Shown: in pieces, positions 308 through 59,300 of the stretch
How the letters are laid out: each line of letters begins with the position of its first letter
Position numbering within the stretch: the first letter of the stretch is position 1
Assembly: GCA_024276075.1 (NCBI GenBank)
Contig: JAJRXX010000070.1
Span: 1-64,000 of the forward strand
Length of the DNA: 64,000 bases
Origin: Planctomycetota bacterium
GTDB taxonomy: Bacteria > Planctomycetota > Phycisphaerae > Phycisphaerales > Phycisphaeraceae
Direction of reading: 5' to 3'
Notes under the pieces: generated by a model
Told to the model about the DNA's origin: nothing
The model's input: only the letters and a program-made list of their open reading frames with translations
The model's database searches: none
Translations under genes and position numbers: made by a program

Positions 308-493
308 ATGCAACCCCGCATCCTCATCACATGCCTCGCCCTGACGATAGGACCGCTGATCGGCTGCTCCGCCAAACGCCCCGCACCCGTGACGCTCTCA
401 CCGACCTACTCATACATCCGAAACGCCCTGCACACGACCCCCTATCAAACCCCGCAGGACCCGCCTACAGGCCAGGCCGTCGCCGAGCGCTAG
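308..493 (+). CDS. Small putative lipoprotein, 61 aa
   Basis: The product starts with a typical lipoprotein signal: basic start (MQPR), hydrophobic stretch, and lipobox L-I-G-C with the acceptor cysteine at residue 20. The mature part would be only about 41 residues and proline-rich, with no known domain. A weak GGA lies upstream of the ATG. The TAG stop at 491-493 is the first three bases of a repeat element (491-615), so the present C terminus may have been set by insertion of that element. An envelope-anchored peptide is the only functional inference possible. It could also be a truncated remnant of a longer lipoprotein. Confidence 0.5.
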   Translation: MQPRILITCLALTIGPLIGCSAKRPAPVTLSPTYSYIRNALHTTPYQTPQDPPTGQAVAER

Positions 494-615
494 AGCAATT
501 GGCGTCATTAATTTCCGTTAGCCGGGTGGCACGGCTTGCTTGCAAGCCGTGAGATACAAATCCAAGTAATACCTACGATCCAACGGGATAGAGCATATTT
601 ATGCCCGTTGCTCTA
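491..615. mobile_element. MITE-like element A1 (TAGAGCAA ends) enclosing a REP hairpin
   Basis: A 125 bp element begins TAGAGCAATTGGCGTCA and ends with an imperfect inverted copy finishing TTGCTCTA. A second copy lies at 42611-42736 and a shorter, diverged one at 54706-54810. The centre (525-552) holds the REP hairpin with head GGTGGCAC and stem CACGGCTTGC/GCAAGCCGTG. There is no coding capacity. Its first bases form the stop codon of the upstream lipoprotein gene. Confidence 0.8.
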
Positions 616-36744: not shown

Positions 36745-36896
36745 CACTGGCGGGCAAGCCCCCAGTGGCACCCGATCAAACCGCATCTCCCCTCCAGGGG
36801 AGAGGTTGGGTGAGGGGTGAAAACCCCGTAAATCATGGGCATACGACCCTCCCCCTACCCCCTCCCTGACAGGGAGGGGAGTTATGAAACTAGTTG
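36745..36896. repeat. REP hairpin followed by family G repeat
   Basis: An inverted REP with stem CACTGGCGG...CCCAGTG and tail GGCACC (36745-36772, same type as those flanking the RAYT gene) is followed by a family G unit (36785-36890) ending GTTATGAAAC. The rest of the 36642-37157 gap shows no feature. Confidence 0.7.
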
Positions 36897-38269: not shown

Positions 38270-38356
38270 CCGGGTGTGTTCACCCGGGGCTAAATAGTGG
38301 TGTGGGGAGGTGTAAGGTTGCGCGTGGGGGTGCCACTGGCGGCTTGCCCGCCAGTG
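38270..38356. repeat. Family D palindrome and REP at the 3' side of the RAYT gene
   Basis: GCCCCGGGTG-tgtt-CACCCGGGGC (family D) is followed by a REP with head GGTGCCAC and stem CACTGGCGG/CCGCCAGTG (38329-38356), 9 bp before the RAYT stop codon. The REP is an inverted, almost identical copy of 38969-38996 on the other side of the gene. Confidence 0.8.
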
Positions 38357-38364
38357 CGGATGAG

Positions 38365-38946
38365 TCAGAGCAAAAGTTCTGCAGCAGGCATGCCTTGCAC
38401 CTGGGGCAGGTCGGCGTCATGACGATCCGTTGCGTTGAAATAATGGTGCCAACTGGACCACCTCCATTGGTCGGGCCGATCGCACAAGCCTCGGTGAACC
38501 GGATTGGCATGGATGTATTGAAGGGATGACGCCAGGACTTTGCCTGATTCGATGTGGCGGTCGTAACCCGAACCCTCCTGCCAGAAGCGGAACACTTGTT
38601 TACCCGGTCGCTCTTGGATGAAAATCTGATGAAATCGGGCGTTGTGGTTTTCTTGCAACCATTGCTTGGCTCGATATGAATGTGGTCGTTTGATGGCATA
38701 AAGCAACGAAGAAACACGAGCTTCGGGGGTGATTGGGAAAACAACGAGGTGGACGTGTTCGGGCATGTAGACAAAGCCCACCACTGTGAAACCATATAGG
38801 GTTGCGGCGGCATCGATGGCTCTGGAAAGCATGATCTTGATGGGGTCGGGTTCGAGCAGTGGGAGACGACGGTAACAGGAGAAAGTCAATTCGCGGGCGT
38901 GCCCGGGTAGGTCGATGTGCTTAACAGTCTTCCGGTGTCTGTGCAT
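38365..38946 (-). CDS. REP-associated tyrosine transposase (RAYT, IS200/IS605-like Y1 HUH)
   Basis: This is a single-strand DNA transposase-like protein of 193 residues. The HUH motif is H64-V-H66 in GFVYMPEHVHLVVF, the catalytic tyrosine fits Y144 in SLQYIHANPVHRGL, and the typical RAYT ending WRWSSWHHYF (161-170) is present. RAYTs bind REP hairpins through a conserved head next to the stem and are thought to disperse them. Here the gene is bracketed by two inverted REPs (38329-38356 and 38969-38996), with at least ten related hairpins elsewhere in the window. There are no IS-type flanks or second gene, so it looks like a domesticated RAYT rather than an active insertion sequence. Confidence 0.92.
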   Translation of the reverse strand: MHRHRKTVKHIDLPGHARELTFSCYRRLPLLEPDPIKIMLSRAIDAAATLYGFTVVGFVYMPEHVHLVVFPITPEARVSSLLYAIKRPHSYRAKQWLQENHNARFHQIFIQERPGKQVFRFWQEGSGYDRHIESGKVLASSLQYIHANPVHRGLCDRPDQWRWSSWHHYFNATDRHDADLPQVQGMPAAELLL

Positions 38947-38968
38947 ATGGGTTTATTACGTGAGAACA

Positions 38969-39046
38969 CACTGGCGGGCAAGCCACCAGTGGCACCCTGC
39001 CAGGGAGAGGGGGAAGAATGCCCGGCAGGATGCCGGGCCTACAAAA
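38969..39046. repeat. REP and GC-rich palindromes at the 5' side of the RAYT gene
   Basis: A REP in inverted orientation (CACTGGCGG...CCACCAGTG, tail GGCACC, 38969-38996) is followed by CCAGGGAGAGGGGG and a GCCCGGCA/TGCCGGGC hairpin (about 39018-39038). The REP ends 23 bp upstream of the RAYT start codon. Confidence 0.75.
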
Positions 39047-42610: not shown

Positions 42611-42736
42611 TAGAGCAACTGGCGTCATTAATCTTCATTGACCGGGTGGCACGGCTTGCTTGCAAGCCGTGAAATACAGATGTTTGTTACACCTACGATC
42701 CAATCAAGATGGAAAATATTGACGCCAGTTGCTCTA
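42611..42736. mobile_element. MITE-like element A2 (TAGAGCAA ends) enclosing a REP hairpin
   Basis: A 126 bp element with perfect 17 bp terminal inverted repeats TAGAGCAACTGGCGTCA. It encloses the REP hairpin at 42645-42672 (GGTGGCAC head, stem CACGGCTTGC/GCAAGCCGTG). It is about 75-80% identical to A1 (491-615), including ACACCTACGATCCAA. It sits in the gap between trmD and uvrB, where the strand GC skew reverses. Confidence 0.85.
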
Positions 42737-44497: not shown

Positions 44498-44765
44498 AAG
44501 CCCACACATTCCAATACGTGGGACCACCATTTAGCCCCACGTGTACCACGTGGGGCATTCCATTCGTACCCATGCAGGGTCCGCTGTGCGAACCGTCCCA
44601 GCTAGTTCTACCTCAACTTGTAGGTCCGACGGGTGGCACAGCTTGCTTGCAAGCTGTGATTCCGCCAGCCCCCACAGTTTGTAGGTCCGGGCCTGCCCGG
44701 ACACATCCATTACGAGTGATCACACCCATGGCATCTTATTACATGTAGGGTCCGCTGTGCGGACC
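44498..44765. repeat. Long composite REP block between kdsD and kdsC
   Basis: Units in order: family E GCCCACACATTCC (44502); family D CCCCACGTG-tac-CACGTGGGG; GGGTCCGCTGTGCG; REP with head GGTGGCAC and stem CACAGCTTGC/GCAAGCTGTG (44632-44659); GTAGGTCCGGGCCTGCCCGG; TGATCACACCCATGGCATC; and TAGGGTCCGCTGTGCGGACC (44746-44765). It separates two genes of one pathway that would otherwise be adjacent. Confidence 0.75.
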
Positions 44766-48429: not shown

Positions 48430-48617
48430 AACCAAGCGTCACCGCCACGAACCGCTATCCGTCAAAACGTGATGCACGAAAAAAATGTGTGGGACCCCAC
48501 CCGTTCCACCACTTAGCCCCACGTGTACCACGTGGGGCATCCCATATATGGGGTCCGTGCGGACCACCCCAGTCGATCATCCAACGACAGGTGCCACGGG
48601 CTGCTTGTCAGCCAGTG
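48430..48617. repeat. Composite REP cluster, third copy
   Basis: GTCACCGCCACGAACCGC, the GTCAAAACGTGATGCACG linker with seven A residues, a GTGGGACCCCAC palindrome, CCCCACGTG-tac-CACGTGGGG, GGGTCCGTGCGGACC, ATCATCCAACGACAG, and a REP hairpin with head GGTGCCAC (48590-48617). It matches the 47100-47240 segment closely. Confidence 0.75.
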
Positions 48618-54705: not shown

Positions 54706-54810
54706 TAGAGCAACTTGCGTAATTATTCTCCATCTCCCCAAGAAGAAGGCAGGTCAATGACCTGCCCTACTCCAGAACTAACATGGCGATTATTTATGCA
54801 AGGTGCTCTA
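54706..54810. mobile_element. MITE-like element A3 (diverged, TAGAGCAA ends)
   Basis: A 105 bp element with imperfect terminal inverted repeats TAGAGCAACTTGCGTAATTA / TAGAGCACCTTGCATAAATA. The centre holds a GGCAGGTCA/TGACCTGCC palindrome in place of the REP hairpin of A1 and A2. The remaining 54811-54940 sequence before hslU shows no feature. Confidence 0.7.
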
Positions 54811-59173: not shown

Positions 59174-59300
59174 CACTGGCGGACAAGCCGCCAGTGGCAC
59201 CCGAAGCCCACGCATAATTAGATGCGTGGGCTTCGAATCATCCGTGTAGTCGAGAAGAGGACCGCTTGCTAACGCGCGCGGCTCGTGACGGCTACACACG
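59174..59300. repeat. Composite REP block (REP, palindrome E, family C)
   Basis: An inverted REP with stem CACTGGCGG/CCGCCAGTG and tail GGCACC (59174-59201) is followed at once by the palindrome GAAGCCCACGCAT/ATGCGTGGGCTTC (about 59202-59236). Next comes an inverted family C unit GACCGCTTGCTAACGCGCGC with GGCTCGT (about 59261-59288). A trace of the family B end (AATGCGTATTAC) lies at 59308-59319, and a GGCCCTGCGAGGGAGAGG family G-like piece near 59355. Confidence 0.7.

Follow-up and report, generated by a model that had tools for sequence, protein, structure and literature searches.

The window, by which the whole 64,000-nucleotide stretch analysed is meant, most probably (about 0.78) contains a REPtron in which a RAYT gene lies between two cognate REPs with outward-directed feet; the gene belongs to a mostly planctomycete clade with GTGC feet, its REPs (family B) are probably dormant in this genome, and the other hairpins of the window come mostly from paralogous RAYTs or from MITEs.

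The gene (positions 38365–38946, minus strand) is an intact ORF of 193 aa encoding a putative Y1 HUH single-strand endonuclease (RAYT or TnpAREP). The protein possesses HVH at positions 64–66, the catalytic Y144, N148, WQ and WxWSS, and ends in WRWSSW; HVH, Y144, N148, WQ and WxWSS were retained in the alignment of its relatives, and the ORF is intact and the catalytic residues kept despite protein divergence of ~50 %. It matched Pfam Y1_Tnp with 26.2 bits (cut-off 23) and the NCBIfam RAYT model NF047646 over its full length (5–146 of 146) with 71.8 bits, below a cut-off of 80 that is a curated naming threshold and not a biological feature. On these sequence matches, a full-length alignment with a sub-cut-off score, it is a divergent member of the RAYT family. 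A profile built from 12 relatives retrieved the Escherichia coli RAYT structure 4er8 (E=3.7e-10), and 4er8, a RAYT–REP complex, was also the top Foldseek match among PDB chains for the AlphaFold model of the protein (pLDDT 89; E=3.2e-7, TM 0.63/0.73), with the IS608 and ISDra2 transposases ranking behind it. In the profile alignment E. coli Y115, N119, E100 and H101 corresponded to Y144, N148, D129 and R130 of the window protein, whilst W122-Q123 and W94-Q95 were paired by motif in the comparison of the two RAYTs. Neither Pfam nor NCBIfam gave a match to a C-terminal HTH in the 193 residues. The first-pass annotation, which had described a Y1/HUH protein with H64-V-H66, Y144 and a WRWSSW ending, and a RAYT with REPs in a planctomycete-like genome, agrees with the ORF, the NF047646 and 4er8 matches and the planctomycete relatives.

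The left REP (GGTGCCACTGGCGGCTTGCCCGCCAGTG, 38329–38356, plus strand) consists of the foot GGTGC and the stem CACTGGCGG with the loop CTTGC, and its foot points away from the gene. The right REP (GGTGCCACTGGTGGCTTGCCCGCCAGTG, 38969–38996, minus strand) is an inverted copy identical at 27 of 28 positions, confirming the earlier description of two nearly identical, inverted REPs around the gene, and the feet of both are unpaired and directed outward. Further family-B REPs were found at 36745–36772 (minus strand), within the remnant of a TIR element with the end TAGACCCCATCCCAAAACCC at ~36672, and at 59174–59201 (minus strand), a free copy with the exact consensus; a diverged hairpin with three mismatches lies at 48590–48617 (plus strand). 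The family-B pattern had eight matches in the window, representing four hairpins read on both strands (0.07 expected per shuffled window), and a pattern search identified 34 copies in the 2.88 Mb window genome (G000). The reversed-pattern control had no match in any of the 121 genomes. Adjoining the right REP is a GTAG-foot hairpin (39018–39040, minus strand) of the type that flanks a third RAYT in this genome.

The relatives of the window RAYT came mainly from Planctomycetota (Phycisphaerae, Pirellulales, Planctomycetaceae and Isosphaeraceae), with a minority from Thermodesulfobacteriota, Armatimonadota and others, and the window protein fell in a mostly planctomycete clade of 37 rows in the RAYT tree (support 98/100). 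Bracketing exceeded chance: an inverted flank pair scoring at least 16 was found at 73 of 90 homologous RAYT loci (both flanks present), compared with 38 of 1500 (2.5 %) control pairs taken from different loci. Foot orientation is defined only for asymmetric hairpins: since GTGCCAC is the reverse complement of GTGGCAC, counting GTGSCAY without a hairpin requirement does not distinguish orientations, and foot counts were therefore based on hairpins. Near 106 RAYT genes, outward-facing CAY-stem hairpins gave GTGC in 94/174 and GTGG in 21/174, the inward-facing values being 37/174 and 4/174, and GTAG was absent from the common feet of these hairpins. The foot was mostly preceded by G[G/T], giving G[G/T]GTGC, with GTGG in a minority; at the window gene it is GTGC, which is not the canonical REP foot GT[AG]G. 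With GTGC feet the base after the stem was enriched in C (55/94), which fits a GC cleavage site, yet stem geometry could also cause this enrichment.

The first six stem bases required 18 changes on the RAYT tree; when labels were shuffled 300 times the mean was 34.1 and the lowest value 28. The stem sequence tracks the tree, an agreement that partly reflects co-inheritance because flank and gene stay linked at homologous loci. A role as co-evolving specificity switch was considered for the last foot base, S (C or G), and rejected, as this base did not cluster on the tree (nine changes, 8.6 when shuffled). The GTGC foot class is possibly new; no report of GTGC-foot REPs was found in the open-access full-text literature, and the published survey of TnpAY1 proteins used an automatic search for GT[AG]G and would therefore miss a GTGC foot (PMC6006769).

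At least 18 family-B copies were present in each of the five genomes that have a close RAYT homologue, compared with 4 of 116 genomes without one that carried at least 10 (Fisher p=6e-7, ignoring phylogeny). Family-B doublets (REPINs) with a spacer of ~20 nt were detected in G024 (28), G027 (27), G063 (10), G071 (3), G018 (2) and G033 (1), of which G027 possesses a RAYT of the clade; the doublet search found none in the window genome. No RAYT of the window clade was detected in G024, G033 or G071 despite their many family-B-like hairpins. Equal REP density in relatives lacking any RAYT, named beforehand as evidence against the proposed system, was thus encountered in part: G024 (95 % complete) has 95 family-B matches, its 28 doublets included, without a clade RAYT, but it holds two more distant NF047646 matches. 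More distant RAYT matches are also present in G071, a single contig in which the family-B-like doublets mostly have a GTGG-type foot base. In G024 and G033 a clade gene may have been missed, because these assemblies are fragmented and several of the REP-bracketed RAYTs of relatives sit near contig ends.

In the sampled doublets of G024 the sequence was unique right up to the GGGTG foot. The loop base was identical in both arms of 25 of the 28 doublets when the arms were transcribed by eye (Fisher p=7e-5), and in 12 of 15 in a smaller automatic set (p=0.15). The 20-nt spacer of these REPINs (L311–L330) is weakly palindromic, with a consensus around GCCGTACGGC. The unique sequence up to the foot and the matching loop bases fit the copying of doublets as a unit. 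Separately, inverted hairpins headed by (GT)TTAGC, which may represent an additional foot class, flank the more distant RAYTs of G024 and G071 (L146, L155, L157 and L158) on both sides.

Family B is probably dormant in the window genome because it has few copies there and forms no REPIN doublets. The same two observations, together with the REPINs of G024 that lack a clade RAYT, would also suit a RAYT that is domesticated or dead, with another cellular role or none, the bracketing REPs being relics kept by linkage. This explanation is rather unlikely given the intact ORF and the catalytic residues conserved across ~50 % divergence, the nearly intact state of both flanking hairpins and the stems that follow the RAYT tree.

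The window genome contains several RAYTs and several REP families. The genome-wide hairpin count proposed in the first-pass annotation resolved two distinct families, with 183 copies of family A (GGTGGCAC) and 34 of family B, and the GGTGGCAC-like head suggested for that count belongs to a different family from the pair that brackets the gene (GGTGCCAC). Family A, as inverted GGTGG-CACGGCTTGC hairpins, brackets a RAYT paralogue (on contig C7) that shares 43 % identity with the window RAYT. It follows that the window RAYT does not have the abundant GGTGGCAC hairpins as its cognates; one of these hairpins, at 44632–44658 (plus strand), lies outside any MITE. The third RAYT (C8:10140–10588, L021) is apparently frameshifted and has GTAG-GCCCGGC hairpins and a GTAG-cored MITE alongside. 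All RAYTs of this genome are single, diverged copies, and no identical transposase-plus-ends copies were found at several sites. One REP per RAYT is already known in other bacteria (PMC6006769). Two more dispersed hairpin families were observed in the window: one with a CA[CT]TTA head followed by GCC(A/C)CGGGTG or GCCCCACGTG stems (15977, 24295, 38265, 44534, 47026, 47175, 47331 and 48516), for which this genome yielded no cognate gene, and one of the CCTCTCCCC/GGGGAGAGG type with conserved CACCCCTCACCC flanks (21052, 23057, 36859 and elsewhere).

Many hairpins of the window ride as passengers inside TIR MITEs. A 125-bp MITE with the TIR TAGAGCA...TGCTCTA (491–615, plus strand) has a family-A REP core (GGTGGCACGGCTTGC..., 525–551) and did not arise from the window RAYT, a 126-bp MITE of the TAGAGCA type (42611–42736, plus strand) has a family-A core at 42645–42671, and a 105-bp MITE (54706–54810, minus strand) has a GTAG-foot REP core (GTAGGGCAGGTCATTGACCTGCC). 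Among these 105–126-bp elements one end type carries family-A, GTAG or GTGC-foot REPs (also at L007–L026 and L291–L310). Approximately 15 % of the window genome (429 kb) was read directly, the rest being covered by whole-genome pattern searches. In the 429 kb, at least one end of a 105–126-bp TAGAGCA MITE accompanied 21 of 34 family-A copies and all 12 GTAG copies (GTAGGGCAGG); of the 33 family-B copies viewed in context across the whole genome, 12 had beside them an end belonging to a second MITE (TAGAACTCATCCCAAAACC, ~138 bp). The TAGAGCA end pattern had 328 matches in the genome and none in the control. Complete elements, sorted by eye after removal of reverse-strand duplicates, had ~17 family-A cores, 12 GTAG cores and one degenerate GTGC-foot hairpin, and no complete copy without a REP core was seen in the sampled genome sequence. 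In G012, the MITE right arm was retained beside all 21 sampled family-A copies.

These data bear on the earlier proposal, read as holding the single window RAYT responsible for both the origin and the continued upkeep of the window's many REP hairpins. That proposal proved mostly wrong as to their source and is now improbable, being largely refuted: the general foot is shared (GTG then C or G), the gene is intact and REPs bracket it, but distinct stem families bracket distinct RAYTs (family A at C7, GTAG hairpins at C8), MITE ends are present on at least the fractions of family-A, GTAG and family-B copies given above, the family-A copies of G012 keep their MITE arm, and REPINs of family B are missing from the window genome.

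An IS630-like gene at L286:1401–2418 (C45 of the window genome) matches DDE_3, is split over two frames and has ends related to the MITE TIRs on both sides, which makes it a candidate parent of the TAGAGCA MITEs. IS630 machinery may move these MITEs, to judge from their IS630-like ends; the link to such a transposase is confined to the TAGAGCA elements, and the second family (TAGAACTCATCCCAAAACC) was linked to no transposase. The MITEs resemble IS630-derived MITEs in their TA-ended TIRs, in being short non-autonomous units and in their many copies, whereas here an entire REP hairpin, belonging to any one of three foot classes, forms the core. We tentatively suggest that REP hairpins might be functional core modules of IS630-type MITEs, one TIR pair carrying three RAYT foot classes (GTGG, GTAG and GTGC), although we hold this to be somewhat doubtful. 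REP hairpins as MITE cores are possibly new, no report of REP-cored MITEs having been found in the open-access full-text literature, and they are a more unusual find than the RAYT variant.

It is very improbable that the hairpins are mere TIRs of an IS200/IS605-like or TIRYT element moving as a unit, with the dispersed hairpins as solo ends, for whilst inverted repeats bracket the gene closely and TIR-flanked RAYT relatives (TIRYTs) have been described (PMC3733652), near-identical RAYT-plus-flank copies were not found among the single, diverged RAYTs of the window genome, the dispersed copies of relatives include REPIN doublets ~20 nt apart, unlike element ends, and the C-terminal HTH typical of most TIRYTs is unmatched in the protein. 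In TIRYTs and TIRtrons (PMC3733652), too, inverted repeats enclose a RAYT-like gene, and certain of these repeats form repeated families; many of their TIRs share GGGGWSAS and often are not hairpins, and subclass 2.1, with its HTH tail, accounts for most TIRYTs (PMC6006769), whereas the window has the foot GGGTGC and hairpin REPs. IS200/IS605 insertion sequences, unlike the RAYTs of the window genome, occur as identical copies at multiple sites.

The window system is instead a divergent RAYT with cognate REPs, a variant of the known RAYT/REP kind. It resembles the RAYTs of E. coli (TnpAREP, 4er8), Pseudomonas and Stenotrophomonas in its Y1/HUH fold, its catalytic residues, the cognate REPs on either side of the gene, the pairing of each RAYT with a single REP family and, in relatives, REPIN doublets. 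It differs in the foot, which is GTAG in those systems, whereas in the window clade a CA[C/T] stem follows G[G/T]GTGC or GTGG, and in the foot-contact residues E100 and H101 of E. coli, which are replaced by D and R, the position aligned with R104 not being arginine (alignment read with PMC6006769). In the published survey TnpAY1 subclasses 2.2, 2.4, 2.5, 2.7 and 2.8 have GT[AG]G REPs, and atypical hairpins and feet are confined to subclass 2.6 and class 3, the latter largely planctomycete with CnGA feet (PMC6006769). Class 3 thus shares non-canonical feet and planctomycete hosts with the window clade, but its CnGA feet differ from GTGS.

By analogy with the E. coli enzyme, the RAYT protein would bind the REP hairpin once the DNA is single-stranded, read the unpaired foot and cut beside it via Tyr144 (PMC8266576), and cleavage would allow REP doublets to be copied. 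Applied to the GTGC foot, the guide rule of PMC8266576 gives GC or GA as the predicted cleavage site; applied to GTGG, it gives CC or CA. Most of the other window hairpins would be cognates of paralogous RAYTs, or would have spread as cores of TIR MITEs.

Combining GTGC and GTGG feet with multiple cognate pairs in each genome and with REPINs in relatives, the clade offers a direct test of how the foot is read and the cleavage site chosen. The MITE passengers are a caution, in that the number of REPs is no measure of how active a RAYT is. REP-cored MITEs raise the question of whether REPs aid MITE spread, and if REP hairpins do act as core modules, single-stranded-DNA HUH and DDE transposition systems would share one composite mobile unit.
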